Positions 1 through 44,910 of a stretch of DNA of 44,910 bases are shown in pieces. A model generated the notes under the pieces. It was not told the origin of the DNA and did no database searches. It worked only from the letters and a program-made list of their open reading frames with translations. Source of the DNA: a virus; IMG/VR virus record IMGVR_UViG_3300020596_000040, positions 1 through 44,910 of that record. The stretch is one strand, 5' to 3'. Each line of letters starts with the position of its first letter. Positions within the stretch are counted from its first letter, which is position 1. The translations under genes were made by a program, and so were the position numbers.

Positions 1-20
1 AGGGGGGGGGGGGGGGGGGG
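1..20. other. G19 homopolymer at contig end
   Basis: An A followed by nineteen G residues opens the window. On the minus strand it reads as a run of proline codons inside the tail-assembly chaperone that starts at 133. Either it is a real poly-proline stretch at which assembly stopped, or it is partly a poly-G sequencing artefact. Its true length is uncertain, and this matters for joining the reading frame across the window ends. Confidence 0.85.
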
Positions 21-133
21 TTGGCGCGCTGAATCGGCATGGCAAAGAGTGGTCCCACACGCTCTAGGACCACCGTCACGCCATTGGTAAACGTGTACGT
101 CGGTTTCGGGTGTCCGCTCCGGCCGGTGGTCAT
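1..133 (-). CDS. tail-assembly chaperone, N-terminal part (continues at 44910)
   Basis: The ATG at 133 opens a frame that is still open at base 1. It encodes an N-terminus with a short beta-like stretch (YTFTNGVTVVLERVGPLF) followed by a run of prolines. Siphovirus tail-assembly chaperones often begin this way: a hairpin, then a P-rich linker, then a helical domain. The gene follows the tail tube gene by 10 bases, the normal position. The continuation, at 44910-44503 on the same strand, begins with a proline-rich linker and an ..NPADPDYA.. motif typical of the same family. A direct end-to-end join is off frame by one base, which a length error in the G19 tract would explain. Assignment is by position and motif; the join is inferred. 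Confidence 0.7.
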   Translation of the reverse strand, partial: MTTGRSGHPKPTYTFTNGVTVVLERVGPLFAMPIQRANPPPPPP

Positions 134-143
134 GGTGCGCTCC

Positions 144-1685
144 TTACAAGAGGTTGGCGTTGGCGACGTAAATCACGCCATCGGAGCCATCAGCGGCTAA
201 TCCGGCAATCGTCAAAAAGTTGGCCGCGATGCCGCTCTCCGTCGCGACCCCGGGAACGCCGATCCGGTTCACGCGATCAAAGACCGGGATGGACGAGCCA
301 ATCCGGGCGGGGACGGATGCGGGCGTGGCCGCCGCCCACGTGTTGCCGCCATCAATGGTACACAACAGATTGCCCTGCGGTCCAGCGGTGTCGTAGGCGA
401 CGTAGCCGACCTCTTCCGTGGCAAACACAATATCGTTGACCTGCGTGGCACTCGGGATCGGGACTTGTACCCAGGTTTTCCCGCTCGTGACCGTGTACCA
501 CAGGTTGCCGTTGCCCGCGCCGACCCACCAGATCTTTTCTGATTTGACCGACAGTGCCAGCAGGGTCTGACTCGTCGGATACTGCGTTGTGGTCGCCCAA
601 ATCATGCCGTCGGCGCTGAAAAGGACGTTGCCGAAGTTGCCCACGGCAACCAGCGTTTCGCCGGTGCCGTGGATGCGCTGCAGGTGTTGGCTGGTGGTGC
701 CCGCGGCGCTCACCACCGTCACGCCCGCCGTGATGTCCGTTGCGCGATAGATGTAGCCCCCCTGTCCGACAATGTAGATTTCGGACGGGCTCACCACATA
801 CAGATCATTCGGCCCGCCGCTGGCGTTGTAGCCGCTCGTGACGGTTGCCCACGTACCCGGGATACCCGTATCGGGATCGATGCGCGCATAGTAGTGTGCG
901 CCCGCTGCGCGGCTCAGCACCACCAGGTATTCGCCCACGATCTCGATGGCGTTGGGCGCCACCGTCGCACCCAATCCGGTGATGTTGACCTCCGTCCATG
1001 CGCCGCCATCGACACTGTAGATCACCTCCGCCTGCGTGGCGGGCGACCCGCCGATCGGATTTGAGATGGCGTAGATGCGCTCGTTGCCTATCTGGCAACC
1101 CGCGCAATCATTCGGCGGGGCGTAGACCACATCCACCACGTTGGCATTGACGGTGGTGGCGGCCTGCTCGCCCAAAAACAGCGGTCCCACCGGATACTGG
1201 CTGTAGGTGGAAAGCGTCAGCTCGGTCATGAGTGCGTCGTCACTATCCATCGCAAACATATCCCCAACCGATCGGTCAGTGACTTCGCCGCTGCTGAGGA
1301 CGTACACCCAGCTTTCATAGCCCCGGTTGAGGTCCGACGGGTTTTTACACCTCCCGGCGGTCAGATAGACCGTGATCGGACAGCCCACGTCGGTCATGAC
1401 GCGTGGGACGGTGCCGTGTTTCTCGGCCACACTGAGCGTATAGGTGCCAAAGTCCGGCGCATCGACACTGCGCCCAATGCGCTCGTAGCGCTTGCGTCGG
1501 TACGGATCCGGTGCGTTGATCGGGCTGATGCTGCCTTTGACCGGATTTTCGACTCCGGATACGAAAAAATACTGATTGCGGGCGCCGTAGTATTGCGCTT
1601 CGTTGGTGGGGGCCGCACCGCCATACTGGATAAAGCCGCGAATGTGCTGTTGCGTCAGCACCACGTCCTTGGTTAATGCGGGCAT
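144..1685 (-). CDS. major tail (tube) protein fused to a BNR-type beta-propeller
   Basis: 513 aa. Residues 1 to about 185 look like a phage tail tube domain, placed just upstream of the tail-assembly chaperone and tape measure as usual. From about 190 to 513 the protein is beta-rich with repeated Asp-box/BNR-like motifs: SVDGGAW near 224, SADGMIW near 357, TSGKTW near 400 and TIDGGNTW near 443. A typical tube protein is 150-250 aa, so the propeller is an added domain that would decorate the tail shaft and could bind glycans. Cysteine pairs occur near 102/113 and 194/197. The ATG at 1685 has a strong AAAGGAG ribosome site. The tube call rests on gene order; the propeller call rests on motifs. 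Confidence 0.68.
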   Translation of the reverse strand: MPALTKDVVLTQQHIRGFIQYGGAAPTNEAQYYGARNQYFFVSGVENPVKGSISPINAPDPYRRKRYERIGRSVDAPDFGTYTLSVAEKHGTVPRVMTDVGCPITVYLTAGRCKNPSDLNRGYESWVYVLSSGEVTDRSVGDMFAMDSDDALMTELTLSTYSQYPVGPLFLGEQAATTVNANVVDVVYAPPNDCAGCQIGNERIYAISNPIGGSPATQAEVIYSVDGGAWTEVNITGLGATVAPNAIEIVGEYLVVLSRAAGAHYYARIDPDTGIPGTWATVTSGYNASGGPNDLYVVSPSEIYIVGQGGYIYRATDITAGVTVVSAAGTTSQHLQRIHGTGETLVAVGNFGNVLFSADGMIWATTTQYPTSQTLLALSVKSEKIWWVGAGNGNLWYTVTSGKTWVQVPIPSATQVNDIVFATEEVGYVAYDTAGPQGNLLCTIDGGNTWAAATPASVPARIGSSIPVFDRVNRIGVPGVATESGIAANFLTIAGLAADGSDGVIYVANANLL

Positions 1686-1697: not shown

Positions 1698-2987
1698 TTA
1701 GCCGATCGATCCGCGCAGTCGTCGCTGCGCGTGCACATAGCGCCATGCCTGCACATGGCCGCGTCGGGTTCCGAATGGGTTGGTCAGATCCGCCGCACTG
1801 ACTTGGTAGGCTTCGTTATTTGCGCCGCTACTGAGCGCAAGATCCTGCTGCCAATGCGCAATCGCCCGGTTCGCGACCTCGCATGCGCAGATCGGGCGAT
1901 CCATTTCGGCAGCGGCCAGCCGGGCAACGACCTGCGCGAGGCTGCTGTCCATCCGCGAGTCGCGCAGTGCCTGGCCTGCCAGATAGCGGATGGTCAACCG
2001 GTCGGGCGGGGTACACACCGACCAATCCAGCGCGCTCCAGATCCCGCTGGATTGATCATACGCTGACGCGGCGGCGAACACGCTCCCCTGGCGGGCGTTG
2101 CGGATACCCGCGCGCGCCACCGCCTGTGCCGTGGCGGCGGGGTCGGCGGGACTGCCGCCACCGGACGCGGTCAGACAGCCGCCACAGCAGCACCACCAGC
2201 CATGGCACGGTCGTGTCTCCCACGTAACCACCGCCTGGCTACTCGCGACGTCGGTGCTACTGGCGTCGGTAAAGCGACGGTAGATGTCAATGGCAACGAC
2301 CAGGACGCCCGCGGTCGTCGGGTTTTTCGGCGCGTTGCGAAAGCCTTCGGAGTGAATCGGCGCAACCAGTAACCACGCGGGGCCGCGCAGCGTGGCGACC
2401 CCCCCGCTGATCGTCACATCCAGCGGGCGCAGACGGTAGCGTTCGGAGACCGGGTCGCTATCCAGCCGATGTGCCGCCGTAAAATACGCGGCAATCTCGG
2501 TTGTATCCGTGATGCTGGTCGCAATCGTCGCACGAAACCGATCCATCACGCCATCGCCATCGGTATCAAGCACGGTGACCGCGCTTGTCCCGATCAGCGT
2601 TCGCGCCTCCGTCCCCATCGCAATGATCTCGCTTTCGTGCAGATCCACACTCCGCCAGCGCCCCGTCGCATCCAGCGACCCGGTGCGGGCCATGCGGTGA
2701 TCGCCGTCGCGTGGCCACGCCACGACCTGCTCGGCATACGTTGGTCCCACGCGGTAGCGCAACTCTTGGCGCATGAGGTGTTCGGCGCGAGCAATCGCCT
2801 CGGTAATCTCATAGCGTCCGATGATCTGCGTGTCCTGCCAGGCGTATCCGTAGACCACGCTGTCACATTGCGCCGTGACGGCCAGCGCATCGCCATCCGC
2901 CATGCCCCAGAAGTGATACGGATGCCAGCCAAAGATCTGTCGCCACTCCTCCAAGCTGAGGGAGGTTGTTGGCCAATCACCGCGCAT
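1698..2987 (-). CDS. structural protein of unknown fold, between head and tail genes
   Basis: 429 aa, not recognised with certainty. It starts MRGDWPTTSLSLEEW, and its first third contains a helical stretch rich in charged residues (ITEAIARAEHLMRQELRYRVG). The middle is beta-rich, with DTDGDGVMD resembling a calcium-binding DxDxDG loop (near 140). A cysteine cluster (CHGWWCCCGGC, near 258) is followed by a helical C-terminus. It overlaps the preceding DUF1360-like gene by 11 bases and is followed 12 bases later by the tail tube gene. That position fits a head-tail connector or neck protein, but this is inference from order alone. Confidence 0.5.
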   Translation of the reverse strand: MRGDWPTTSLSLEEWRQIFGWHPYHFWGMADGDALAVTAQCDSVVYGYAWQDTQIIGRYEITEAIARAEHLMRQELRYRVGPTYAEQVVAWPRDGDHRMARTGSLDATGRWRSVDLHESEIIAMGTEARTLIGTSAVTVLDTDGDGVMDRFRATIATSITDTTEIAAYFTAAHRLDSDPVSERYRLRPLDVTISGGVATLRGPAWLLVAPIHSEGFRNAPKNPTTAGVLVVAIDIYRRFTDASSTDVASSQAVVTWETRPCHGWWCCCGGCLTASGGGSPADPAATAQAVARAGIRNARQGSVFAAASAYDQSSGIWSALDWSVCTPPDRLTIRYLAGQALRDSRMDSSLAQVVARLAAAEMDRPICACEVANRAIAHWQQDLALSSGANNEAYQVSAADLTNPFGTRRGHVQAWRYVHAQRRLRGSIG

Positions 2988-3246
2988 GCACGCGCTCCAT
3001 CAGCGCTTGCGCGCCTGCTATCCCGCCCCAATACAACCAGATCTGGCCGGGCGGGGCGACCGCCAACGCCAACGGCAACGCCAGCCAAACGCCGATGCAC
3101 AACGGGCAGCGCAGCCCGCGCCCGATCCAATCATCGGTCAGCCGCAGATTGCGGATGCGCGTACACAGATCAAACGGTCCATCTTCGTAGGCCGCCATAT
3201 GTGCCAATCGGGAGCAGGTCAGGATGGCGAGCAGCAGCGCTATCAT
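2977..3246 (-). CDS. small membrane protein, DUF1360-like
   Basis: 89 aa from the ATG at 3246, which overlaps the stop of the glycosyltransferase gene (ATGA). An N-terminal hydrophobic helix (MIALLLAILTCSRLAHM) is followed by a charged loop. Next come a CPLCIGVW motif inside a second hydrophobic segment and a third short hydrophobic segment. The CxxCxGxW signature in a small two-to-three-helix membrane protein matches the DUF1360 family, common in phage genomes near connector genes; its function is not established. A longer start at 3288 is possible but would overlap the upstream gene by 46 bases. Confidence 0.65.
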   Translation of the reverse strand: MIALLLAILTCSRLAHMAAYEDGPFDLCTRIRNLRLTDDWIGRGLRCPLCIGVWLALPLALAVAPPGQIWLYWGGIAGAQALMERVHAR

Positions 3247-5927
3247 CGTGGCCGCACCAGTGCAAACGTCCCGAGTGCCATCAACCACGGGACATCTTGC
3301 GCATCGGCCTGAAAAAACTTGTGAAACGGATTGTTTCCCACTCGATAGGTGCGGAGACTGGGCCGACCGAGCACCGAATGCTCGCCTTGCTGGTCGCCAA
3401 TGTAGGCCATCTCGACACTCCCGCTGCGCGGGAGGTTTTCGAGGCTGATTGGCGCATCCGGATGGGGTGGCGGTTGGGTGGCGTCAAATGCGCGCGCCAC
3501 GGGCAGCGCCATGCCGCCACAACATGATCCCTTGCGCGCCATGGTGTCCGCTCCTTTATAGCGTGTTGCCAGCAGTGCCCGGAGGTGATCGGCCTGCGCT
3601 TCGCCCGCGTTGCGGCGGGTGCCGGTGGTAATCCGGTAGTGCAGGATGGTGGCGGCAACCCGCGCCCCGAGATAGCCCTGATGGCAGAGTTTTAAGTAGA
3701 GATCGCCATCTTCCCACGCGATCAGCGTGGGATCAAACCCGCCACTTTCCAAAAACGCCTGACGCGCCACGAGCATGGTTACGGCCGGCAAGCCCAACGG
3801 CGCGCGCTGCCGCGCGCGCTCCAGCCAATGTTCGGCGCTAAACTCAGCAGCCGGGAGGTAATCGATGGGTTGATCCATCTTGTCGTCAACCACCGCGCAA
3901 TCGCCATACACAAACGCCACATCACCGACCGCGTAGCGCGTCAGTACCGTATACAGCGCGGTTGGGGTGAGCATGTCATCAGCATCCAAAAACAGCACCA
4001 ACGGCGCGCCGCTGTCCTGAGCGCCCCGATTGCGCGCGGCCCCGGCGCCAATCCGGTCGGTGGCGATGATGCGCGCCCACGCATGTCCGGGCAGCACCAA
4101 CGGCGCGCCGGTGTCGTTGATCACCACACACTCCCAGCGGTCAACGGTTTGCGCGATCAGGCTATCGAGTGCGTCAATCAGGCATGCGGCATGCCCCGGC
4201 CCGACCGGGATAATCACACTGACCGCGGGCTCCTGATGATGCGGCACCGGCCAGGCGCGGTTGCCGGGACTGCCCCCCGGCGCGGCAAACGGCACGCACC
4301 AGGGAATCGGCTGCTGCTGACGTTCCACCGCAACGACGCCACCGGGACCCGTGCCATCGCCAAGCGCCCACGGATAATCGCGGGTCCAATCACCGTCCCG
4401 ATCCGCATAGGCGCGGGCTTCTGTTTGGCTTTTGCTGTCCTGGCGCATGCGGTAGATCAGCGTGGCGTGATCGGTAACTTGTGCCGCGCGTAGTCCAAAC
4501 GACATGGCGCGTGTCCACAGGCTGGCATCCTCCGCACGCCAATGGCGTGCGCGATACCCGCCGGTGCGGTCAAACGCGCTTCGTCGCCAAAGCGCCGCAT
4601 AGTGCAACTGATTTAAGTGCGCAATCTGTTTGTACCACGCAATCCCATGCGGCCAGGGATTGCGGCGGGCATTGCGGCCATCCTCACCCACGATGTCCAG
4701 TGCGCCCGCCGCAATATGGAGATCGCGATGCGTATCGAGTGCCTCCGACAGCCGCGCCAACGCTCCCGGTGCGAGCATATCATCGGCATCCAAAAACAGC
4801 AGGTAGGTGCCGGTGGCCAGCGCGGCCCCGGCGTTGCGCGCGGCCGACAGCCCGCCCTGAATCGGCTGGCGATGCACCGAAACGGTTGGCCAATCGCGCA
4901 GCACATCCTGCGCAACTTGTTCGCCGCAATCGTCAACGACCAGCACCTCATCGGCTTGATCGACGGCGGACGCCACGGCGTCAGGGAGGTAGCGGTTCAA
5001 ATTGTGCGCGGTAATCACGACGCTTGTTCGTTTTCGCGGGGCGCGGTCAGCGGTCAGCATCCGCTGATACAGATCGGCATACTGCGCGATCCGTGGCCGC
5101 CACCCCCACCGGGCGATGGCGTCCGCGCGGGCATTGGCAGAGAGCCGCGCACGATCTGCGCGCGCGCGCTCAATTGCGGCGGCCAAGCCATCGTAATCCC
5201 CAAACTCCACCAGATAGCCGGTTTCGCCCTCTTGAATGATCTCCGGTTGTGCGCCAAACCGCCAGCCAACCACCGGCACGCCGCAGGCTAACGCCTCTAA
5301 GGTGCCAATGCCAAACGTCTCCCGCACGGTCGCCAAATACACGCCCGCTTGGGCGACCATGTGACGCATCTGCGCAACCGGGATCGCCCCCAGCAATTGG
5401 ATGTTGTCATGCGGTGCGCCGAACGTGGAGACAAACGGCACCGCGGGCAATCGGGTTGCGAGTTCACCAACCGCCTCCGGGTCGCTGACCGCATCCGCGC
5501 GCGCCTTATTCCACAACACATAGCCGCGTGTGTCTTCTGGCGTCCAGTCATCGCTCTCCACTCCATGATAAATCACCTCAGGATGCAGCAGACTGCCGCG
5601 CCGAATGGCATTTGCCACCCATTCTGAGGGTGCGGTCACAGCATCAGCCGTCAGCATGCGGTCAATCACGGATCGGTTTGCGCCATCGGCCCAGCGCGGC
5701 CACGCGTACTCGCGCCAATACAGGCCGTGATTGTGATTGACCATCGGACAATCGACCCGCGGCGGAATGAGCGTGCCATGCACCGCACACAGATCGGCCG
5801 ATTGCGGGTCGTTGACGATCTCGACGCCAAACTCGGGCAGATAGCGCACCAGCGCCTCCACCACACGCCGTATTCCGCCATCGGCCTGATCGGTGCCGGT
5901 ATACATCGGACTCATGTGGACGTTCAT
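3243..5927 (-). CDS. three-domain glycosyltransferase (GT4 + GT2 + GT2) with CCGG tail domain
   Basis: 894 aa from the ATG at 5927, which overlaps the methyltransferase stop (ATGA). Residues 1-295 are a GT-B, family-4-like transferase (GGIRRVVEAL; TFGIGTLEALACGVPVVG donor-site block). Residues about 300-520 are a GT-A family-2 domain (SVVITAHN, LLFLDADDM with the DxDD metal site). Residues about 590-795 are a second GT2 domain (SVIIPVGPG, LFLDADDM). The last 99 residues form a small separate domain beginning MARKGSCCGG. The enzyme would add up to three sugars in series to a phage or host acceptor. A perfect ribosome site at 3551-3558 lies in frame before the tail domain, so that domain may also be made alone. 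Neighbours are a methyltransferase, another GT2 and an epimerase. Confidence 0.85.
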   Translation of the reverse strand: MNVHMSPMYTGTDQADGGIRRVVEALVRYLPEFGVEIVNDPQSADLCAVHGTLIPPRVDCPMVNHNHGLYWREYAWPRWADGANRSVIDRMLTADAVTAPSEWVANAIRRGSLLHPEVIYHGVESDDWTPEDTRGYVLWNKARADAVSDPEAVGELATRLPAVPFVSTFGAPHDNIQLLGAIPVAQMRHMVAQAGVYLATVRETFGIGTLEALACGVPVVGWRFGAQPEIIQEGETGYLVEFGDYDGLAAAIERARADRARLSANARADAIARWGWRPRIAQYADLYQRMLTADRAPRKRTSVVITAHNLNRYLPDAVASAVDQADEVLVVDDCGEQVAQDVLRDWPTVSVHRQPIQGGLSAARNAGAALATGTYLLFLDADDMLAPGALARLSEALDTHRDLHIAAGALDIVGEDGRNARRNPWPHGIAWYKQIAHLNQLHYAALWRRSAFDRTGGYRARHWRAEDASLWTRAMSFGLRAAQVTDHATLIYRMRQDSKSQTEARAYADRDGDWTRDYPWALGDGTGPGGVVAVERQQQPIPWCVPFAAPGGSPGNRAWPVPHHQEPAVSVIIPVGPGHAACLIDALDSLIAQTVDRWECVVINDTGAPLVLPGHAWARIIATDRIGAGAARNRGAQDSGAPLVLFLDADDMLTPTALYTVLTRYAVGDVAFVYGDCAVVDDKMDQPIDYLPAAEFSAEHWLERARQRAPLGLPAVTMLVARQAFLESGGFDPTLIAWEDGDLYLKLCHQGYLGARVAATILHYRITTGTRRNAGEAQADHLRALLATRYKGADTMARKGSCCGGMALPVARAFDATQPPPHPDAPISLENLPRSGSVEMAYIGDQQGEHSVLGRPSLRTYRVGNNPFHKFFQADAQDVPWLMALGTFALVRPR
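3540..3558 (-). promoter_or_regulatory. internal ribosome site and ATG inside the glycosyltransferase gene
   Basis: The minus strand reads TAAAGGAG (3558-3551), eight bases, then ATG (3542-3540). This is the same AAAGGAG that precedes the tail tube gene. It is in frame with the glycosyltransferase and would give a 99-aa product starting MARKGSCCGG and ending at 3243. The preceding codons read CGC TAT AAA GGA, one base away from a TAA stop, so loss of an ancestral stop codon could have fused two genes. It may equally be functional dual initiation. Confidence 0.6.
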
Positions 5928-6499
5928 CGGTCGAACACCTGCACATTCGCGGCCAGCCAATGGCTGGATGGGCCGGTAACATAGCCGAAGAGGTGCGACA
6001 GTTGGCGCGTATCGTCCTCCCGATAGCTGATGCCGTACGCGGCAAACAGGCTGCGCCAATAGCTCGCCGGTTGACAGTTGATATGATGCTCGCCTGCTTG
6101 TCCTGGCGGCGCGGCGCTGAACACGATCCGTCCGCCCGTCCGCAGATGGCGCGCAAGGGAGGCAATCAACACGGGTGCGGCGTCCGCGGGGAGGTGTTCG
6201 GCCACTTCCACGCAGGTCATGAGTGCCACGGTCAGCTTGAGGTCAAGCGGCGTCGTCAGATCGTGCGTCACAAACCAATGCTCCGGTCCGTTGATCAGGT
6301 CAACGCCCCGTGCGTCAATGCCCATTTTGTGTGCCATGTTGACCATCGCGCCGGTGCCGCTGCCGACATCCAGGTACGATTCGGGCACACCTTGCCAGGC
6401 CACCAGCTGCGCAAACGCACGCTCATTCCACCCGTCAAACGGCGCAAGTTCCGCGCGGCGGCGAGCAATGTCGGTTGGCGACGGCGCACCGTAACTCAC
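5924..6499 (-). CDS. SAM-dependent class I methyltransferase
   Basis: 191 aa from a GTG at 6499, which overlaps the upstream stop (GTGA). Motif I is YLDVGSGTGAM. The acidic loop after strand 2 is GVDL, and CVEVAEHLPAD is the motif IV/post-I region of the Methyltransf_11/23 group. GGRIVFSAAPPG follows, and the HHIN stretch after it is common in sugar or lipid O-methyltransferases. In a glycosylation cassette it most likely methylates a sugar or capping group. A start further upstream would lie inside the previous gene and lacks support. Confidence 0.78.
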   Translation of the reverse strand: MSYGAPSPTDIARRRAELAPFDGWNERAFAQLVAWQGVPESYLDVGSGTGAMVNMAHKMGIDARGVDLINGPEHWFVTHDLTTPLDLKLTVALMTCVEVAEHLPADAAPVLIASLARHLRTGGRIVFSAAPPGQAGEHHINCQPASYWRSLFAAYGISYREDDTRQLSHLFGYVTGPSSHWLAANVQVFDR

Positions 6500-7170
6500 A
6501 GCAGTGTCTCCGTCTTGACCGTGCCAATATGCGCAAACGGTCCCCATTCGGGCAAAGAGGCCGGCCAGACGACCCACGGCGCGCCGGTATTGCGCGTGCG
6601 GTACCGATAGGCATAGGCCAGTTCGGTGTCGCCCGGTCCGAGGTTGTCGGGATACCAGCCGTAGGCATCGCGGTAGCGGGTGTGGCGCAGCGAGGGATGC
6701 CCGGTGAAGACCAATTCGTTGCGCTCGGCCGGCTCGTGATACAGCCGCCAGTACAAGCGATTGGCGGCGGCAACCGTTGACCCGACAATGCCACGATTGA
6801 GATAGCCCAAGCGCACCATGCCGATCTCCGGATCGTCCAGCGCCTGCGCGTAGGACGTGAGGTCAAACGGCGCGCGAAGTTCCCAATCATCTTCCAGCCA
6901 AAACGTGAGCGGGCTGATCGCATCAGCAGCTCCCCACGCGGCATTGGCGTTGGCTCCGTAGCCGCGCCGTTCGCGGTGGGAGCCGATCACGATCTGATCA
7001 TCCAGCGCGGTCAGGAGCGCGTCAACGTGATCGCGTGGACTGCCATCATCCGCAACGTACCAGGCCAGGTCTCCGGCATAGCGGAGATACTGGCGTGCGG
7101 CGGCAATCGTGGCCAACGCGGTCTCGGTGCGCTTAAACGTTTGGAGGATAAGCACAATTGGCAGTGTCAT
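6496..7170 (-). CDS. GT-A (family 2-like) glycosyltransferase
   Basis: 224 aa, overlapping the epimerase stop by ATGA. The start PIVLILQTFKRTETALATI matches the GT2 opening strand; WYVADDGSP is the nucleotide-binding acidic turn. FWLEDDWEL is the DxD-like metal site, here EDD. A C-terminal tryptophan-rich stretch follows (YGWYPDNLGPGDTE). It is shorter than typical bacterial GT2 enzymes (250-330 aa), as is common for phage cassette members. The donor sugar cannot be inferred. Confidence 0.78.
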   Translation of the reverse strand: MTLPIVLILQTFKRTETALATIAAARQYLRYAGDLAWYVADDGSPRDHVDALLTALDDQIVIGSHRERRGYGANANAAWGAADAISPLTFWLEDDWELRAPFDLTSYAQALDDPEIGMVRLGYLNRGIVGSTVAAANRLYWRLYHEPAERNELVFTGHPSLRHTRYRDAYGWYPDNLGPGDTELAYAYRYRTRNTGAPWVVWPASLPEWGPFAHIGTVKTETLL

Positions 7171-8078: not shown

Positions 8079-8168
8079 GAGCGCTCCGTTCATCCAGTTC
8101 CGGCGGGATCGTGCGGAGCAGCACCCGGAGATATGCTGTTCAGGAGCGACCCTAGCTCCGCACGGTCG

Positions 8169-8189
8169 AAAAACCACCCCAGCCTGGTT
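8169..8189 (-). terminator. weak hairpin with T-run after the capsid gene
   Basis: On the minus strand, overlapping the capsid stop codon, AACCA pairs with TGGTT around an 8-base loop and runs into a row of T residues (8173-8169). A five-pair stem is short, so it may only attenuate transcription into the glycosylation genes. Confidence 0.3.
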
Positions 8190-12695: not shown

Positions 12696-14090
12696 TTACT
12701 CCTGTGCATCCTCCGCCCACACCATGGCCGCATCCCACTCCTGATCAACCAGGCTCCGGGCGCTGGCCTTGGTGGTCGGTGCGGCGAGCGCATCGCTCGG
12801 CTTTTCGTTATCGCCTAACGCGCCGCCGGGGGTCAGATCCTGTTGCACCAAGGCTTTCGGGATAATATTCTCATCGGCCATGATGTTCGTCATCTGCGCG
12901 CCGGATAACGCTCCTGCCGCAACCGCCGCCGCCAACCCGTCAATGCGCGTCTTATCCGCCAGCGCCTTCTGCTGCCGTTCCCGACTATCGTTTAAGTTGG
13001 TCCAGGCGAACTGCATCTTGCGTGGCAGCACCCAGCTATTGAGATAGTGCATCAGCGTGCGCCGCCAGCTGGCCAGCCCGTACCCTTCGGCCTCCTCTGC
13101 CAGCACGACCGATTGCGTGCCGGTACCAATGCCCTGGCCGGAAAGCGGCTGAATGTCCTGCACCGGTATGCCAATGGCATTGGCATAGCGCAGATAGGCG
13201 TCCTTGCGCTCTTGCTCCACGTTAAACCCGTCCGGGATACTGGCCAGGTCAATCGTCACGACTTCCGGGCTCACGCTCATCGCGCGTAACGGAACGATGA
13301 TGCTGCCTTTGTAGACGAATCCTTTGCGCGCCTGGCTCTCATCCGCCGATGTGCTAATGTCATCCAACTGATCCTGACTAATGCCGTTCACGAAATGAAT
13401 GGCCAGTGCGCGATTGCCCGTAATCTTCTCGGCGAAGTAGGTTTCTATCGCCGCGAGCTTGATAATGGTTGTCCAGGCACGCGAGGCGGCGCACAAGCCG
13501 AGGCCATACGCTTGGCGGTGCGGCGATGGTTGATCGGCCATATGGATGACCTGATCATAGCGCAGCAGGTGCATCTCGCCCCGCGCATCCGTGTACACGA
13601 CCGGATAGTCCGCATTGCCGGTGCGGCGGCACCAGGCGCTATCGAGATGCCACAACGCGCGCACGCGACTCCACGGCGCACGGCTGACGCGCTCCACCTC
13701 GATAAACGCGCCGTTGTCACACAAGAGATAATCCTGCACATGTTTTTGCAGCCCAATCGTCCACGCGCCATCGAAAAACAACAGCGTGCGCTGGGCGCGC
13801 TCCATCCGCAGGTCGCTCTCGGTGCTATCAGTCACCGTAAATCCGAGCGCCGCTTGCTTGGTGGTCGCCTTGGCAATGGCGCTAGACCACATGTCCTCAA
13901 CGTGCAACGTTGACCGCAGCACCGAATCACGCAGCGGGCTCCACCAGGCAGGCAAGCCCTTCTTCGCGCCGCTCAGACTCGGTGCCCACATCCCCGGATC
14001 GACGCTAAACCAGATCGGGCTGCCAATGCTTTTTGGTTGCACATCGGCCTTGGTCACCGAGCCGTTGCGGTTGGGATCAAACTCAGTCAT
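12696..14090 (-). CDS. portal protein
   Basis: 464 aa, ATGA overlap with large terminase. The sequence is consistent with an SPP1/HK97-type portal: an N-terminal wing (MWAPSLSGAKKGLPAWWSPLRD), a central region (HLLRYDQVIHMADQPSP, YGLGLCAASRAW), and a stem/crown region with long helices. VEQERKDAYLRYANAIGIPVQDI resembles the conserved part where portals name the metal or clip. Length is normal (400-550 aa). Gene order terminase-portal-head protein supports the call. Confidence 0.82.
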   Translation of the reverse strand: MTEFDPNRNGSVTKADVQPKSIGSPIWFSVDPGMWAPSLSGAKKGLPAWWSPLRDSVLRSTLHVEDMWSSAIAKATTKQAALGFTVTDSTESDLRMERAQRTLLFFDGAWTIGLQKHVQDYLLCDNGAFIEVERVSRAPWSRVRALWHLDSAWCRRTGNADYPVVYTDARGEMHLLRYDQVIHMADQPSPHRQAYGLGLCAASRAWTTIIKLAAIETYFAEKITGNRALAIHFVNGISQDQLDDISTSADESQARKGFVYKGSIIVPLRAMSVSPEVVTIDLASIPDGFNVEQERKDAYLRYANAIGIPVQDIQPLSGQGIGTGTQSVVLAEEAEGYGLASWRRTLMHYLNSWVLPRKMQFAWTNLNDSRERQQKALADKTRIDGLAAAVAAGALSGAQMTNIMADENIIPKALVQQDLTPGGALGDNEKPSDALAAPTTKASARSLVDQEWDAAMVWAEDAQE

Positions 14091-15307
14091 AATTGGAACT
14101 CCGTTACGGCGCGGTAACAGGCCATCGACAGGCAGACGGCCAGGTCAATTTTTTTGTTCGGTGCGCGTTTGACGATCCGTAAGCGCCGACCATCGGCATC
14201 CATCTGCCGGTCGGCATGTGACAGATGCGCCCGGAGTTGCTCGTTGCCATCGTGCGCAATCCCGCGTTGCATGATCGTATCAAGCAGGAGGCGATCAGCC
14301 TCCAAGCGATCCCCGCCCTGCCCAAACGGCATACACCACACCGTATCACTGAGCCGCTGCGCCAAGTAGTGCGCCTGATACGGGTCGTAGGCAATCTGGA
14401 TAACGTTGACGCGCGTGAGCATCGCGCGGATCTCCGCTTCGATGATCCGATAGTCCAGCGGGTCCCCGGTGGGAACCCAGTTCATAATCAAACGCACCGT
14501 CAGACCTTTGCCCACCCCAACAAGTCCAAAGGTGTCGCTATCCACTCCCGCATCCAATGCGCACACCAGCGGCTCACGCGCATTGATTGGCGTCGGCGGT
14601 GCCTGGCAGGCATCCCACAAGGTCATGCTCGGCAAAAACTGTTGCGCGGAAAGCGTGGTGAATTGCGCGAGTACCTCTTGATTGTAGACATCCGTCGGCA
14701 TGTCACGCTCCATGGCGCGAATTTCTGCCGGAGCAATGAATGGGTTATCGTGCGTCGGGCGCTGCCACGCATGCCAGTCGGGCAGGGTGTGGCCGTAGGC
14801 AAACAACTGTTGAAAATCGCTATCACCAAGCGGCGTACTCAAAAACCACGCATCGCCTTGCAAATCGGCCAGCGTGGGGCGAATCACCTGTTGCCACGCA
14901 GCAAGCAACCGATCAACCATCGCCGCCTCATCCAGGACGGCGCGTCGATACTTACGACCACGCGCCACGTTTGGCTGAGTCAAACTCCACATCTCAATAA
15001 TGCCGCCGGTAATAAGTTCGATACGACGCTCTTGGTCTGAGACGCGATGCGTCACGGGGTCGGCGATTTCCCGCACGGTGCGCCAAAACGCAATCAGCAT
15101 TTTATACGTTGGAGCGAAGTAGGCAACGGGATAGCCGTCAAGCGCAGGTTGCATCAGCAGATTCAGTGCCAGCGTGGTTTTTCCCCACCGACGCCCGCAG
15201 CACACCACGTTAAAGCGCCGCGCCGCACGCAGAATGCTGCGCTGGCCGGGATGCGGGCGTGGTAAGCGCACCGTACGTTCATTCGTCAACTGGCGACTCA
15301 TCGACAT
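14087..15307 (-). CDS. terL: terminase large subunit
   Basis: 406 aa. The N-terminal ATPase has Walker A CGRRWGKT (37-44) and Walker B AVLDEA (123-128, RRAVLDEAAMVD). FLSTPLGDSDF is the coupling motif III (S/T-T-P). The C-terminal RNase H-like nuclease starts at ALDAGVDSD (about 250-258) and has a late acidic/Asp site in KKIDLAVCLSMA. It packages DNA into the prohead together with the small subunit upstream, with which it overlaps by 29 bases. Length is at the short end for TerL (400-550). Confidence 0.93.
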   Translation of the reverse strand: MSMSRQLTNERTVRLPRPHPGQRSILRAARRFNVVCCGRRWGKTTLALNLLMQPALDGYPVAYFAPTYKMLIAFWRTVREIADPVTHRVSDQERRIELITGGIIEMWSLTQPNVARGRKYRRAVLDEAAMVDRLLAAWQQVIRPTLADLQGDAWFLSTPLGDSDFQQLFAYGHTLPDWHAWQRPTHDNPFIAPAEIRAMERDMPTDVYNQEVLAQFTTLSAQQFLPSMTLWDACQAPPTPINAREPLVCALDAGVDSDTFGLVGVGKGLTVRLIMNWVPTGDPLDYRIIEAEIRAMLTRVNVIQIAYDPYQAHYLAQRLSDTVWCMPFGQGGDRLEADRLLLDTIMQRGIAHDGNEQLRAHLSHADRQMDADGRRLRIVKRAPNKKIDLAVCLSMACYRAVTEFQL

Positions 15308-23017: not shown

Positions 23018-23283
23018 CGCCGTATCTCCCATCCGGTATCCGTCTCCACCAGTCGCCCGGCCAGCCGCGCCAATCGCACGGTTTCCGGTGCCTTGCCAAT
23101 CAGCTTCGCAATCGTGCGGTTGCTGGTTGGTTTCGGCTTCGACCCGCGCACCTGCACCGGGTAGGCAGCGCGATGATCGCGCCAACAGACGCTCCACAGG
23201 CCGCGCCCGACAATGCGACGGCGACGGTTGCCGTGCAGGCAGCGCGTGCGGGGATGGTTGGTCAGCGGTGTGTGGTTCATCAT
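23014..23283 (-). CDS. basic HTH-like small protein
   Basis: 89 aa. The first half is very basic (RCLHGNRRRRIVGRGLW). The second half has a helix-turn-helix-like segment (NRTIAKLIGKAPETVRLARLAGRLVET). The start ATG at 23283 overlaps the previous stop, and another ATG follows immediately at 23280. Probably DNA-binding; function unknown. Confidence 0.55.
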   Translation of the reverse strand: MMNHTPLTNHPRTRCLHGNRRRRIVGRGLWSVCWRDHRAAYPVQVRGSKPKPTSNRTIAKLIGKAPETVRLARLAGRLVETDTGWEIRR

Positions 23284-28737: not shown

Positions 28738-28771
28738 TGCAACCACATGAAGGCAAGAGAAGGAGCGAGTC

Positions 28772-37915: not shown

Positions 37916-38421
37916 TACAGTGTCTCGATCCAAAATTCGGGCGTATACGCCCCGGCGGACGTCACATCGAGTGCGACGCCGCTGTCCTGGAAGGGAAACA
38001 CCTCGATATAGTCGCCAGCGGCGAGGTTGTACGCGGTGGCGAGCGAGAGATAGGTGACCGCGCCGCCGGTCAGGGCTTGCGTCGCCTGCAACGCAAGAAA
38101 CGTGCCATTATTGAGTCTGAGCTGCAGATACCTCGCGCCGGTCACATGTGCGGCAAAGGCAATATGTGCGCCGATCAGATAGCGTCCCGCCAGCGGAATA
38201 GTGAGGCGCGAGGTATTGACGCTGGTTGAGTGATAACTTGCATCATCATAGCGCTCGCTATCAAACGTGATCGCCGCGTTCACACCGCTTGCAATGCTGA
38301 TCGCGGTGCTGTTGTAGACCCGCGCGCCGGAGATCGCGCGCACCTCACTGCGTGGCCTGCGTGCAACCGTCTCCAGTGCCGTCAGGCGCAAAAGCACACT
38401 GCTGAATCGATCATCGCTCAT
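37915..38421 (-). CDS. C1q/TNF-like receptor-binding tail protein
   Basis: 168 aa. An N-terminal helix (VLLRLTALETVARR) is followed by a domain from about 30 to 168. That domain has AAITFDSERYDDASYHS, RLTIPLAGRYLIGAHIAFAA, YLQLRLNNGTFLA, YNLAAGDYIEVFPFQDSG and TPEFWIETL, the pattern of C1q-like trimeric heads found on phage fibres. It probably forms a trimer that binds a host surface molecule. ATGA-coupled to the hub gene. Confidence 0.78.
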   Translation of the reverse strand: MSDDRFSSVLLRLTALETVARRPRSEVRAISGARVYNSTAISIASGVNAAITFDSERYDDASYHSTSVNTSRLTIPLAGRYLIGAHIAFAAHVTGARYLQLRLNNGTFLALQATQALTGGAVTYLSLATAYNLAAGDYIEVFPFQDSGVALDVTSAGAYTPEFWIETL

Positions 38422-39554
38422 GCGCTATACCTCACCCGCGCGGTGCTGTGCTGCGTGCCACCACTGACACGCACCCCGATCACGTCCACGCGACAATCGT
38501 ATTGCTGATTGCGAAAACGGGCCGTCACGAGATCGCCGACATCGTACTGCACGCCCCGCGTGGTGCTCTCCGTATCGACAATGTCGGCGGTAAACTCCGT
38601 GCGTGGTCGCCCCGCGCGGACCAGTGCATCGGCCTTATCTTGGAGGACGGTGGCATCGCTAATGTTGGTGTAATCGCCAAACACCTCAATCCGGTTGGAT
38701 GGGCTGTCGCCCATCCGCGTGGCGTCAACCGACGTTGCGGTGATCCGGCTCGTTCCTGACCCGGTGCCCGCACAGATCGCGTAGGTCACTTCCTGGCTGC
38801 GATCCACGGTCAACACACAGTTGGTGAGACTGCCCGTGTCCTCGCTCAGGATCACCGGCTGACGACTGGAGGCGCGATGATCGACGCCCCGCACCGTCGC
38901 ATACGTGCGCAGTTCGAGCGTTTCCGCGCTGGCTGCGACAATTTCGGCAGTCATATAGGTGCCTGCCTGCGTGCTGGCATCGGCAAGCTGTGTGATCAGA
39001 TCGTACAAATTCGCCCAGGCGTCCTGGGCCGCCACCGTCACGCCATCATTTTGGTTGGCTTGCACCCGCACGAGGCTACTGAGATCCGCTTGGGTTTCGG
39101 CCCCGATCCGGTTGGCGCTGCTGATGGTACTGCCCAACTGCTCTTTGGCATAGGCCTTGATCTGGTTGCCCGCACTATCCGCCGCTTTTGTGCTGTAACT
39201 CGTGCCGGCGTAGTAGGCGATGATCCGACGCTTGAGCAGACTGGTGGCGTGATAGGCCGTTACCGTCGTGCTTTGGTTGGTGTAGCGCCATGTGCGGATG
39301 AGATAGATCGCCTGGCCATCGAGGGTTGGCGCACGGCCATTGATCGACCGCCACACGCCGATCCGGCCATCCAACCGCAGGAGGCGCGTGTCAAACGAGA
39401 TTGGCACGGTCAGGCTGAGCGCCCCCACGTTGCCGACATTGAGTGCATAGTCCAACGCCGCGCCGCCCGCATCGGGATCATCGACAAAGTTGGCGACCTC
39501 GGCCAGCGGCACGCCAAACGGATCAGCAATGCGACAGGTGTAGGTACTCGTCAT
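38418..39554 (-). CDS. baseplate hub / Gp37-like tail protein
   Basis: 378 aa. TYTCRIADPFGVPLAEV, then GALSLTVPISFDTRLLRLDGRIGVWRSI, and LIRTWRYTNQSTTVTAYHATSLLKRRII match siphovirus ReqiPepy6 Gp37-like (gp27/Tal-type hub) proteins. The C-terminal VQYDVGDLVTARF with CRVDVIGV is the usual final beta domain. It sits at the tail tip and closes the tube; located after the distal tail protein as expected. Confidence 0.78.
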   Translation of the reverse strand: MTSTYTCRIADPFGVPLAEVANFVDDPDAGGAALDYALNVGNVGALSLTVPISFDTRLLRLDGRIGVWRSINGRAPTLDGQAIYLIRTWRYTNQSTTVTAYHATSLLKRRIIAYYAGTSYSTKAADSAGNQIKAYAKEQLGSTISSANRIGAETQADLSSLVRVQANQNDGVTVAAQDAWANLYDLITQLADASTQAGTYMTAEIVAASAETLELRTYATVRGVDHRASSRQPVILSEDTGSLTNCVLTVDRSQEVTYAICAGTGSGTSRITATSVDATRMGDSPSNRIEVFGDYTNISDATVLQDKADALVRAGRPRTEFTADIVDTESTTRGVQYDVGDLVTARFRNQQYDCRVDVIGVRVSGGTQHSTARVRYSA

Positions 39555-42082
39555 GGCGCCACGGCCTGATAGAGCGCATCGTCCAGGCTCCCGTAGCGCG
39601 TTTGCCAGCTGGCAACCGCCACCACCGTGGCGCTATCGCAGAAAAACACCAGATTGTTCGCGCCTGGTTGGAGTGTGAATTGCGCGGTCTGCGATCCCGG
39701 CGCAATCGTGCTATAGATGTTGCCGCGCATCGATGAAACAAACGAGAGGTTTTGCGGGTCCAGGGTCAGTGTTGCGGTTTCGCCTGCAAGCAATGTCAGA
39801 TTAAAGTAGATCGCGGTGTTGGTGGTGGTGTTGAGCAGCTCGTAGATGATGCTGCTGCCGGATGTCGGGCCGGTGATGACAATCTTGGGTGATGTGGCAA
39901 CCGTGCCATTGTTGATCGTACTCGTCACGAGCGGCGCAGTGACGTTGCCGACAAGCTTTGACGAGCCCATCGCCAGCGTGCCATCCGGACGAAACGCATA
40001 GCTCTCCACGCTATCCGATCCGGGAATAATCGCGTCAAGGTACAGCAAGGTGCTGCCATTCCAGCGAATGCCACCGGCGGGAAAGATCATCGATCCCGAT
40101 TGGGTAAAGGTGCCGCCAAGGTAGAGCGTCGTGTCGGGTGCGAACGTGAGATCCGTTATCCGCCCGTTCGCGAAGCCATTGCCGACTTGGGCAAATGCGA
40201 TGCCGTTCCAGGTGGCAAATCGCAACAGCGGCGCGAACGTGCCATCGGTGGTAAAGTCTCCACCGATATACAGCAGGCCGCCCGCATCAAACGCCAAGGA
40301 TGTCACGCCAAACGAGGAGACTGATCCCAACCCAGCTGGTCCCATGATACTCCACACCGTGCCGTTCCACTTGGCAATGTAATTGACTCCCACCCCGCCA
40401 ATGGCGGTAAAGGTACCGCCTGCATACACCGTATTATCCGGCGCAATCGCCAAGGCCAGCACGGCATTATTTGCGTCTCCGATCGACACCCAGGCGCTCC
40501 CGATCCATTTGGCGATGCGCGCGGTGTTGGCCACGCCACCCGCTGCCGTAAACAACCCCCCCGCATACACCGTGTTGTTCGAATCAATGGCAATAATGGA
40601 CACCTTGGCATCCATGCCGGTTCCCAGTGCGCTCCACACCGATCCGTCCCATTTGGCAATGCGCGCGGTGTTTGCCACGCCGTTTACCGCCCCAAAACTC
40701 CCGCCCGCGAACAAATTGCCTGCGGCATCAAACACCAGTGTCGTGATGCCGCCACCGAGCGTCACTCCTCCGCCAACGGCATTCCAGGCGGTGCCGTCCC
40801 AGCGGGCAATGCCCCGCGTGTTGGCCACGCTATCGATGGAAAGAAAGCCGCCGCCTGCATACAACGATCCATCCGGACCATACACGAGCGCCTCCACATC
40901 ATTCGTATCGACGCCGGTGGTACCCAGCGCAGTCCATGCGCCGCTCGGACTGCGCTGAAGTAGGCCGGTTGCGGCGAATGTTGTCCGAGCGGAGAGGAGC
41001 GTGCCGCCATCCCGACCGACCACATACGGCAGATATTGCGCAAACGTCAGCTGTGCCGCCAGCGTCGGGAGTTCTTGTCCGGTGCCCTCGAGCCCGCCCG
41101 CGTAGATCGCCTTGGGGATGGTCACCAACGCGCCAATCGGCGCGTTGCACCCCGCCGCTTGGAGACACAGATTCAGCGGCTGCGGCAATCCGACCAGATC
41201 CCGATCCAGCAGGCGGATCAGCCGGGCCGCGCTGGCCTCGCGGCGGGTCGGGGTCGTGCCTGTCCAGCGTCCGACCAGTGAGATCGTCCGCTCGGGTTTG
41301 ATCGTGGTGCTGTATTGCGCCCCATCGAGTTGCGCAAATCCCAACGCCGCATTGCGTGGCGTGGCAAGACCCAGCCCGATGATCGCGGTCAGTACAAAGC
41401 CGAAATCTTTGAATCGCACAATCCGACCTCCTGCCCTGGTTTGTCCGCTCCGAAATGAGGTACTGGCATGCGGTGTGCCATTCCAGCCGAACGCCGCCGG
41501 AAACTGATTCGCAATCAGGCCTGCCTGATCGCCGTCGATATAGGTCGTCACGAATACCCCCTCCGACCCACACGCCTCCACCTGCCAGCCATCGGCGTAG
41601 AACACGCCGGTGCGGGCGCTGCCGTTTTTTGTAAGATAGATACGGCGCGTGGTGGTGGATGTTTCCGTCCAAAACAACCAGATCCATTGCCATGCGCCCA
41701 CGCCGCGAAACGGCGTGGCGATCAGATCGACTCCGCCCGTGGTGGCCACGCGCAACGTATACGGCACGCCCGCCAACCCCTTGACGTCGACCGATATCGC
41801 GTAGGTGGTCCCCGCGGTGAGGGCCACGGTGCCATAGTATGCGCCATCGGTCGGTGCGGTGCTGGGCGTGATCGCCAGACTATACGCGCCGTGGGACTGC
41901 TCGGCGGTACTGCGCACAATCGCGCCGCCCACCGCCGTGTAGCCCGTCGTGTTGGTTTCGAGCGACGGATTGGTTACCAGGTTTGTCCGCGCATACGGCA
42001 CGATGATTCCGATGCTCTCGTCGTAGCGATCCAGCGGCCCCATTTCCGGGATACCCGGCATGGTACGGTAGGATGTCCTCAT
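39551..42082 (-). CDS. distal tail protein with carbohydrate-binding and propeller repeats
   Basis: 843 aa. Residues about 25-190 are a CBM-like jelly roll (NLVTNPSLETNTTGYT, YAISVDVKGLAGV, YADGWQVEA). Residues about 200-390 look like a distal tail core. From about 400 to 690 there are six or more repeats of YAGG(T/L)F..I(G)GV...IAKWNG(T/S)VWS(A/I)(L/M)G, a propeller of the DUF5122/tectonin type. A beta domain forms the end, with SSIIYELLNTTTNTAIYF. The role is the distal end of the tail plus glycan binding. ATGA-coupled on both sides. Confidence 0.7.
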   Translation of the reverse strand: MRTSYRTMPGIPEMGPLDRYDESIGIIVPYARTNLVTNPSLETNTTGYTAVGGAIVRSTAEQSHGAYSLAITPSTAPTDGAYYGTVALTAGTTYAISVDVKGLAGVPYTLRVATTGGVDLIATPFRGVGAWQWIWLFWTETSTTTRRIYLTKNGSARTGVFYADGWQVEACGSEGVFVTTYIDGDQAGLIANQFPAAFGWNGTPHASTSFRSGQTRAGGRIVRFKDFGFVLTAIIGLGLATPRNAALGFAQLDGAQYSTTIKPERTISLVGRWTGTTPTRREASAARLIRLLDRDLVGLPQPLNLCLQAAGCNAPIGALVTIPKAIYAGGLEGTGQELPTLAAQLTFAQYLPYVVGRDGGTLLSARTTFAATGLLQRSPSGAWTALGTTGVDTNDVEALVYGPDGSLYAGGGFLSIDSVANTRGIARWDGTAWNAVGGGVTLGGGITTLVFDAAGNLFAGGSFGAVNGVANTARIAKWDGSVWSALGTGMDAKVSIIAIDSNNTVYAGGLFTAAGGVANTARIAKWIGSAWVSIGDANNAVLALAIAPDNTVYAGGTFTAIGGVGVNYIAKWNGTVWSIMGPAGLGSVSSFGVTSLAFDAGGLLYIGGDFTTDGTFAPLLRFATWNGIAFAQVGNGFANGRITDLTFAPDTTLYLGGTFTQSGSMIFPAGGIRWNGSTLLYLDAIIPGSDSVESYAFRPDGTLAMGSSKLVGNVTAPLVTSTINNGTVATSPKIVITGPTSGSSIIYELLNTTTNTAIYFNLTLLAGETATLTLDPQNLSFVSSMRGNIYSTIAPGSQTAQFTLQPGANNLVFFCDSATVVAVASWQTRYGSLDDALYQAVAP

Positions 42083-44334
42083 TGGCGCATTGCCTCCATC
42101 ACCGCAAACGACTGGCGTACCACCGCCGGGCTTTGGTTGGTGTACACCGGCATGTTGTAGGTGGTCTGCTGACTGGTCGTGGTGGCGCCCATTGCGGCAC
42201 TCGCGGGCGCATGCACCATCGTGAGCGCGGGTGCCAGCTGCGCCTGAAACGTCGTGGCGGCCACCGTGGTCGCCTCCGCAATTCCGCGCATTCCCAATTC
42301 TAACGGCGTCGGGCTGCCGGGCGTAATCAGACTCGGGACTTTGATTTTACTGGCGGCGTTGATAAAGTCCTTCACTGCGCTAATCGCCGTGTTGATCGCG
42401 CCCGCGATCTCGCCGAATGCGTCCGTGATCACGTGTATGGAGGTGGTTACGGTGTCTTGTGCGATCTGCATATACGGCGCAACCGCAGCACCCAATTTTT
42501 TGAAGTTACTGTCCCAGGTGGCGCCGATCTCCGTCAGGCTGGTGCCCATCGCGGTCGCGATCAGCTCCAGTACGCTCGTGATCACCGCATATATCGCGTT
42601 GACCACCGTTTCGCTCATGGTTTGTAGCGCGTGCCAGGCGGTTGTCCAGTCGCCATTGATGATCGCGAGCGCAGCGATCATCACGCCCGTGATGATGGCG
42701 AGGGCCGCGGTGATGACACTGCTGATAATCGTCCACGCCGCCGTCAGCACGCGCTGGATTTCTGCGCCGTGATCCGCGATGAAGCGCAGCACGGTCGCCA
42801 GCACGCCCTGGACGGTGGCTTGCACCAGGTCCAGCGCCACGGTCACAATCTCGCGCACGGTTGTCCAGGTGGTCTGCACGAAGGTCATAATCGCATCGCC
42901 GTTGGTTGACCAAAAGGCAAAGATTTGTCCACCAACGGCCGTGATCACGGCCAAAATAAACGGCATCACGGACGAGACCACGCTTTGAATGCCGGTGAAG
43001 GCGAGCACAAAGGTGTCGCCAAGCGCAGTCACATAGCCCTGCGCAATCGGGAGGATGGCCGTAACCGTCGCAATGGCATCGCCGAGCAGTGGAAATTGCG
43101 CGCTGATAACGGCAAGCGGATCGCCAGAGTCAAGCAGCGCCATCGCAAACGTCGTAACGCTGGATGCCGCCGCCGCGACGTCTTGAATGAGCGGCGTCAG
43201 GAGCGGAAGCAGCTTCGTGCCGATGATCAGTTGCAGCGTTTCTATCTGGCTTTGCAAGCCCGCAATCGCACCGTTAAATCCTTGCGTTTGCGCGTCTGCG
43301 ACGGTTTGCGCCGATCCCGTTTTGGTCACTTCGGCGGTCAGTTTGGCGTAATCTGCCGCACTCATATCGAGTAACGGCAGCATCGCCTTCATGCCGTCTG
43401 AAAGGAAGATCGTCCCCAGCGCGGCGTTGCGCTGCTCGGCCGTCATCCCTGCGGTTTGCGCACGAATGTGTTGCAAGAGTTCGGGCCACGGCTTCATACT
43501 GCCCTGCGCGTCGTAGGCCTGTATGCCCAACTGCTGCATAAGATCGGCGGCCTTGTCGGTCGGATTCATCAGCCGCATCATCGCATTTTTGAGCGCCGTC
43601 CCCGCGTCTGAGCCGGTCAAGCCGACGTTGGTGAGCGCCGCCACACTGACGACCAGATCGTCAATGGTTTGCCCCGCCGCGTCGAAGGCAAAGCCGCCTT
43701 GTTGCAAGCCTTGGCTCAGGTCGGTCATGCTTGCGCTTGAGGCATTGGCGCCACCGGCCAACAGATCGGCAATATGCGCGGCGTCGCTCGCTGCCAGGCC
43801 AAAGGCGTTGATCGCCTGTGCCGTAATACGTGCGGCCGCCCCCGCGTCGATCTCCGCAGCGGCGGCCAGTTGCAACGTGCCTTTTGCGGCGGCCATGGCC
43901 TCATCGACGCTGAAGCCTGCCTTGGTCAACTCCAGCATCGCATCGGTGGCGTCTTGCGCCGACGTTGCGGGTAATGTCAGATCGCCGCCCAACGCGATTG
44001 CGGTGGCACGGAGTTGTTCCAGTTGCGCGGCCGTTGCGCCGGATGTTGCGCCAATCACGGCCAGCGTTTGCTCAACATTGGCCGCACTCGTGACACTGTC
44101 TTTGACAAACGCCCCGACGGCTTGTGCGGCCTGCGCCATGGTGTCAATGGCGATGGTGCCAATATAGCGGAGCGCGCCGGTGATGATCTCGCCAAACGCG
44201 CTCCCTTTTCCGGCGGCGCTCCCCAACCCGCTCGCAAAGTCATCGGTGGCCTTGGCCGCGTTGGTGAGATCGCGAAGGTACGCGGGGACGCCCTGCGCGA
44301 TGAGTTCAACGCCTGATTGTGGTAATCCTGGCAT
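42079..44334 (-). CDS. tail tape measure protein (TP901 type)
   Basis: 751 aa. The N-terminal half has the TP901 core: NVEQTLAVIGATSGAT, then ALGGDLTLPATSAQDATDAMLELTKAGFS, TAQAINAFGLAASDAAHIADLL, GSDAGTALKNAMMRL. The second half contains several hydrophobic helices (VMPFILAVITAVGGQIFAFW, AWTIISSVITAALAIITGVM). At about 0.15 nm per residue, the known tape-measure rule gives a tail near 110 nm. AAAGGG precedes the ATG. Confidence 0.92.
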   Translation of the reverse strand: MPGLPQSGVELIAQGVPAYLRDLTNAAKATDDFASGLGSAAGKGSAFGEIITGALRYIGTIAIDTMAQAAQAVGAFVKDSVTSAANVEQTLAVIGATSGATAAQLEQLRATAIALGGDLTLPATSAQDATDAMLELTKAGFSVDEAMAAAKGTLQLAAAAEIDAGAAARITAQAINAFGLAASDAAHIADLLAGGANASSASMTDLSQGLQQGGFAFDAAGQTIDDLVVSVAALTNVGLTGSDAGTALKNAMMRLMNPTDKAADLMQQLGIQAYDAQGSMKPWPELLQHIRAQTAGMTAEQRNAALGTIFLSDGMKAMLPLLDMSAADYAKLTAEVTKTGSAQTVADAQTQGFNGAIAGLQSQIETLQLIIGTKLLPLLTPLIQDVAAAASSVTTFAMALLDSGDPLAVISAQFPLLGDAIATVTAILPIAQGYVTALGDTFVLAFTGIQSVVSSVMPFILAVITAVGGQIFAFWSTNGDAIMTFVQTTWTTVREIVTVALDLVQATVQGVLATVLRFIADHGAEIQRVLTAAWTIISSVITAALAIITGVMIAALAIINGDWTTAWHALQTMSETVVNAIYAVITSVLELIATAMGTSLTEIGATWDSNFKKLGAAVAPYMQIAQDTVTTSIHVITDAFGEIAGAINTAISAVKDFINAASKIKVPSLITPGSPTPLELGMRGIAEATTVAATTFQAQLAPALTMVHAPASAAMGATTTSQQTTYNMPVYTNQSPAVVRQSFAVMEAMRQ

Positions 44335-44336
44335 GT

Positions 44337-44549
44337 TTAGCGACCCTTTACGGCCTCGTGGCGTTGATAGGCCTGCATGCCGCGCTCGGTGCGATAGGCG
44401 GCAATCAACAATCCCTGCTCATCGGCGGTCAACGCTTGCCACGCATCAAAGTAGCGATAGCCCGACCAGACGGCCACCAGCACGGGATCAAGTGCCGCCG
44501 CGTTATACCGCAACTTCGATTTCGGCAGCGTCTGCAAGATCGCGCTCAA
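44337..44549 (-). CDS. tail-assembly chaperone second part (frameshift or TTG start)
   Basis: 70 aa, overlapping the preceding chaperone frame by 47 bases and ending two bases before the tape measure gene. The content (LPKSKLRYNAAALDP, FDAWQALTADEQGLLIAAY, ERGMQAYQRHEA) is typical of the extension part of chaperone pairs. Independent initiation would need a TTG at 44549 without a ribosome site; a programmed +1 or -2 frameshift in 44503-44549 would make the extended form. I see no classical slippery heptamer. Confidence 0.62.
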   Translation of the reverse strand: MSAILQTLPKSKLRYNAAALDPVLVAVWSGYRYFDAWQALTADEQGLLIAAYRTERGMQAYQRHEAVKGR

Positions 44550-44910
44550 CGGTTGGCCGTGGACCGTGACGCGGAAACATGGCGGCGGCGCTTGCCACCA
44601 CCTCCTCGGTCACATCATAGGATCGGATGGCGGTGAACAGCCCCACGAGATCCGCCTGATTGCCCACACACACATGTTTCAGAAACACCATCCGGTCGCT
44701 CTCCTCCAGTGTCACCCCGGCGCGCGCATAGATCCGCCGAACCCGCGTTACCGCATCCAGGTCAACCGCCAGGTCGTCACTGACGCCCATATCGATCAAC
44801 GCGTCCTGCATGATCAAGGCGACCCGCTGCGCGTGGTCGGTCAAGGTCGTGGCATAGTCGGGATCGGCGGGGTTCGGTTCCAGCAGTCCCCCCACGCCGG
44901 GGGCCAAGGG
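44503..44910 (-). CDS. tail-assembly chaperone, C-terminal part (begins at 133)
   Basis: The frame is open at the right window end with no convincing start; a TTG at 44907 is not credible. It begins PLAPGVGGLLEPNPADPDYATTL, then helical (DHAQRVALIMQDALIDMGV, ARAGVTLEESDRMVFLKHV). Linker, DPDY motif and following helices match siphovirus chaperones. Joined with 133-1 the protein would have about 180 residues, a normal size. Confidence 0.72.
   Translation of the reverse strand, partial: PLAPGVGGLLEPNPADPDYATTLTDHAQRVALIMQDALIDMGVSDDLAVDLDAVTRVRRIYARAGVTLEESDRMVFLKHVCVGNQADLVGLFTAIRSYDVTEEVVASAAAMFPRHGPRPTVERDLADAAEIEVAV

Follow-up and report, generated by a model that had tools for sequence, protein, structure and literature searches.

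When both ends of a viral contig lie within open reading frames, the question arises whether the contig is a fragment or a complete map opened inside a gene. The window, i.e. the whole stretch of DNA analysed here, is an entire IMG/VR virus record of 44,910 bases (G000) and not a slice of one. As the first-pass annotation had noticed, one open reading frame leaves the window at base 1 and another enters at base 44910, both on the minus strand. The left frame begins with an ATG at position 133 and exits through a run of 19 C residues, while the right frame enters as P-L-A-P-G-V and reaches its stop codon at 44503. Read directly, base 1 is an A followed by G19 at positions 2-20; the longest other homopolymer in the window has 7 bases. 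A hairpin considered for the left end was no more stable than those of shuffled sequences.

The two ends share exactly four bases, AGGG (bases 1-4 equal bases 44907-44910). The right end reads ...GGCCAAGGG, the left end AG19TTGG..., and merging them on AGGG gives CCAA-G19-TTGG (...GGCCAA-G19-TTGG...): the left end spans the whole run plus one base more, and the right end reaches three bases into it. Joined on this overlap, the two frames become a single open gene of 178 codons on the minus strand, running from 133 to 5 and then from 44910 to 44503 (Table 1). Plain abutment of the ends leaves the frames out of register, with a stop after 88 codons. The one-base offset noted earlier therefore holds for plain abutment but not for ends overlapped on AGGG, and the homopolymer error put forward to explain the offset is unnecessary because the four-base overlap already closes the frame.

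Table 1. Features at the seam and in the surrounding head-tail genes (positions of the window).
Feature	Position	Strand	Remarks
A + G19 homopolymer, probable assembly cut site	1..20		C19 in the coding strand, Pro x6
Split gene, 5' part	1..133	-	ATG 133-131; N-terminal β strands; QRAN-P6; codons 1-43 = 133 to 5
Shine-Dalgarno-like AAGGAG	140..145	-	6 bases before the ATG; overlaps the stop of the upstream gene
513-aa tail protein, N-terminal β domain and YCF48-like β-propeller	144..1685	-	PF14870 9.3e-7; upstream of the seam gene
429-aa structural gene	1698..2987	-	30% to the 434-aa protein of L003, 7e-51; next in the conserved order
Portal protein	12696..14090	-	PF04860 7.5e-7, below the curated cut-off; 32-40% to the equivalent in relatives
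Terminase large subunit	14087..15307	-	phrog_2 1.5e-35, PF20441; start of the cut module
Gp37-like minor tail protein	38418..39554	-	PF14594 1.2e-20
Large Dit-like distal tail protein	39551..42082	-	phrog_33, SPP1_Dit weak; syntenic in G001 and G004
Tape measure protein	42079..44334	-	PF10145 3.4e-45, phrog_1533 1.6e-74; follows the seam gene
+1-frame extension, 78 aa, T-domain-like	44337..44573	-	ends immediately ahead of the tape measure gene
Proposed +1 ribosomal slip site TTT_C	44574..44577	-	ATG TTT CCG
Split gene, remainder	44503..44910	-	codons 44-178 and stop; EPNPADPDY motif, helical part; gpG-like by position

Against a profile of 20 relatives from which the window was excluded, the joined protein scored 51.5 bits, compared with 35.5 bits for the right half and 12.2 bits for the left half, and the match to the joined protein is one collinear domain running across the seam. 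The closest intact relative, the gene of genome G004, aligns across the seam with a score of 151 (QRANPRPAPPL in G004, QRANPPPPPPL in the window). Its spacer has the same length of six residues: the C19 run encodes Asn-Pro6-Leu where G004 has Asn-PRPAPP-Leu, and QRAN and PL are conserved on the flanks. The first 44 residues alone score 78 against this relative, a value reached by none of 5000 shuffles, and in an alignment of 21 relatives nearly all carry a proline-rich, P-x-P-P-like motif at the position of the seam. Taken on their own, the first 37 residues show weak and unconvincing similarity to most of the more distant relatives.

Using an alignment of the propeller protein encoded upstream as query, we retrieved 29 IMG/VR loci. 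The propeller gene is followed directly by the chaperone gene in 21 relatives, these being the loci with enough sequence downstream; in L024, a second propeller copy in tandem precedes the chaperone gene. The genes of relative G001 form one uninterrupted run (TerL-portal-...-429aa-propeller-[chaperone]-TMP-Dit-Gp37), and the genes of the window, read from 15307 to 144 and then from 44334 to 38418, follow the same order. So do the shared genes of G014 and of G004 (the latter read as a circle), and G008 agrees from the terminase to the tape measure, with its Gp37-like gene located elsewhere. The place of the seam is uncut in G001, G008 and G014, and the sequences at the two ends of the window adjoin each other in the genomes of relatives. 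Because the order in G001 is continuous, the ends of the window, judged by gene order, bisect a continuous morphogenesis module.

How such cuts arise in this group is illustrated by G004 (52,244 bp), whose last 127 bp are an exact repeat of its start, making it a closed circle. The contig L061 (MKTJ01000009.1), which is 99.8-100% identical to G004 over four matched stretches, crosses the seam of G004 and contains the 127-bp repeat once, in its interior. Since L061 runs through the point of the end repeat, cut points in this group are arbitrary choices of the assembler. The phage represented by G004 (locus L008) has thus been assembled twice, and the L061 scaffold was binned with Chloroflexi bacterium 54-19. 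A search of genomes for hosts with alignment A1 returned one contig, located in a Chloroflexi MAG. There are hints of a Chloroflexota host for the relative G004/L061.

Based on these comparisons, the record very probably represents the genome map of a tailed phage (~44,906 bp), circular and complete or nearly so, which was broken at the homopolymer. The first-pass annotation had the ends falling within a single gene that lies between a tail protein gene and the tape measure gene; both points are supported by the gene order in 21 relatives, the profile match across the seam and the closed circular relative, and this evidence fits a circular and a circularly permuted genome alike. According to its authors, CheckV accepts terminal repeats from a length of 20 bp upwards, and circular templates are broken at random by assemblers (PMC8116208). 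The window has no direct terminal repeat of that length, and it misses the CheckV rule because its overlap (AGGG) amounts to only four bases. It resembles the direct terminal repeat contigs of CheckV and IMG/VR in being a complete map with a cut that carries no biological meaning, here placed in a gene; G004 with its 127-bp repeat is the textbook case of that class, whereas the window is cut in a homopolymer. Our scan of IMG/VR, a collection that may leave out records very near the window, yielded no junction-spanning contig, and INPHARED contained no near-identical phage isolate, either by DNA or by propeller protein.

Other explanations for the ends have to be weighed against a cut circular map. 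The window and G004 are both cut in or beside the same gene, as would be expected of a linear genome whose physical ends (cos or unique) fall within the chaperone gene. We regard this as extremely unlikely: a 127-bp overlap as in G004 is the usual trace of an assembler, L061 passes that very point, three relatives are uncut there, and a packaging cut at this place would split a tail gene in every virion. Still less credible is a chimeric contig, or ends derived from different phages, with a gene that only appears to be continuous. The shortness of the overlap, just four shared bases, would permit such a coincidence, but the genes of the left and the right arm have their counterparts in the same relatives and in a single unbroken order, the GC content is alike along the contig (60-66%), and the joint profile match is collinear.

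The homopolymer itself requires separate consideration. Among the matches listed, we surveyed 119 IMG/VR contigs (L062-L180) with G/C runs of at least 19 bases; in 92 of them the run lies no more than 150 bp from a contig end, compared with 2.7 expected from random placement. This strong concentration at contig ends, also among the matches listed, together with the lack of any run longer than 8 bases at the loci of relatives, would fit a G19 tract that is an assembly end artefact within a truly shared gene, its real linker being a mixed proline-rich sequence like PRPAPP of G004 with a few bases wrong or missing. We consider this rather unlikely, since both flanks of the run fit (the A at base 1 corresponds to the A at 44907) and 19 bases yield the right frame as well as exactly the six-residue spacer of G004, although part of G19 could be artefactual. 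A different possibility accepts the C19 run as real but unstable in the virus population, with slippage turning the reading frame of the chaperone on and off, or transcriptional slippage buffering the effect. Under this reading the run would act as a contingency locus in an essential gene of tail assembly, and its instability would account for the break in the assembly graph as well; we think this very improbable.

A technical origin in the 'dark' poly-G of two-colour sequencing was rejected: it predicts that runs read G in the outward direction, but among the matches listed the runs up to 150 bp from an end read outward as C in 53 cases and as G in 39, and the run of the window reads C. We also asked whether the run recurs at the opposite end. 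Of the 12 large contigs tested among the matches listed, all with a run touching the end, two resemble the window in this respect, namely L131 (43,075 bp) and L166 (41,255 bp), whose opposite-end run has 9 bases. With the others not clearly so, matching homopolymers at both ends do not constitute a general rule, but L131 and L166 may be further circles cut at homopolymers. Because homopolymers at contig ends usually have no counterpart on the opposite side, the tract by itself is no proof; a terminal homopolymer is a weak point of assembly, and it is the gene evidence that argues for a circle.

Returning to a circular map cut at the homopolymer, we propose that the DNA in the sample was circular, circularly permuted or concatemeric, and that a short-read assembler halted from both sides at the C19/G19 run in the chaperone gene. 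The run would then be real DNA of about 19 bases, failure of a polymerase or of the assembler at this run would have caused the break, and nothing would be missing between the ends. The cut inside a gene would be an ordinary effect of assembly, and the biology behind it largely ordinary as well. In practice, a complete phage genome may thus be mistaken for a fragment, and even without reads a contig lacking a terminal repeat can be recognised as a complete genome by a gene split between its ends, the gene order seen in relatives, and a homopolymer where it is cut. Because long G/C runs pile up at the ends of IMG/VR contigs, some other IMG/VR records may likewise be hidden complete genomes that escape the 20-bp repeat rule.

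What, then, is the gene at the seam? The first-pass annotation had called it a tail-assembly chaperone on account of β strands, a proline linker and helices and of its place before the tape measure gene. This architecture is present in a structural model of the L061 protein, with N-terminal strands, a proline linker and C-terminal helices (mean pLDDT 85.7), and the position holds; no family or fold names the protein a chaperone. Searches of PHROG and Pfam gave no named chaperone match, and Foldseek searches of PDB and BFVD produced no hit below 1e-3, with a named chaperone coming up only at E 0.87. The window gene thus stands apart from named chaperones, none of which it detectably matches in sequence or fold, and we assign it by its position and by a G/GT-like frameshift architecture.

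The arrangement described for gpG/gpGT in a review (PMC5009743) provides the model. As in λ and other long-tailed phages, the gene adjoins the tape measure gene upstream and has two overlapping frames, with a predicted frameshift near the end of the first. By analogy with λ, the gene would encode a gpG-like chaperone, and ribosomes slipping by +1 at UUU_C, close to its end, would make a longer product of the gpGT kind, which brings tail subunits to the tape measure. The usual shift in λ-type gpG/gpGT is –1, whereas the window group would use +1. The relatives of the 78-aa +1-frame extension align. The shift codon is TTT in the window and in every one of the 20 relatives tabulated (19 loci and L061, from the set L005-L028 and L061), which have an open +1 frame and are not all independent. 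The following base is C throughout, except for T in L005 (TTT TGA) and L061 (TTT TCA). At other positions of these genes, 39% of the Phe codons are TTT, TTC being the commoner one. L003 seems to have a –1-type site, C_CCA_AAA, in place of the +1 site.

The predicted site shares its P-site UUU and the next base C with the PA-X shift of influenza A virus (UCC_UUU_CGU; PMC3498833), and four relatives (L015, L016, L018 and L019) even carry UCC_UUU_C. In contrast to PA-X, the window group belongs to a bacterial virus, its site is a prediction, and its A-site codons are CGG/CGA, CCN, CAA/CAG, UCA or UGA. Shifts of the +1 type are in themselves no novelty among phages, since the PRFect training set contains 350 forward sites from annotated phages. 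For the tail-assembly chaperone gene, the discussion of +1 shifting in the review cited above (PMC5009743) names the haloarchaeal virus HSTV-2 only. The group shares a predicted +1 UUU_C site of a type rarely documented for this gene.

The gene had also been placed between a tail tube and a tape measure gene. The tape measure is confirmed, but the 'tail tube' role of the 513-aa neighbour is suggested by position, with neither family nor fold in its favour: the protein is of the propeller type. Its model (pTM 0.82) led Foldseek to YCF48, and it shows 32-38% identity to its relatives; it belongs to no PHROG family and has no match among 50,697 phage records. The recognised gene set comprises TerL, a portal protein (weak), tape measure, Dit, a Gp37-like protein and a DnaB-like helicase, and no family in the searches of window genes named a capsid gene. 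Within the head-tail module, a glycosyltransferase (938 aa), a 224-aa protein and a nucleotide-sugar epimerase are encoded at 3243-8348 on the minus strand, and G008 carries the same trio in unchanged order. Further genes encode a GHMP kinase-like protein (15570-16469, minus strand), a phosphoadenosine phosphosulfate reductase-like protein (22217-23422, minus strand) and a Lar-like restriction alleviation protein (28726-29433, plus strand).
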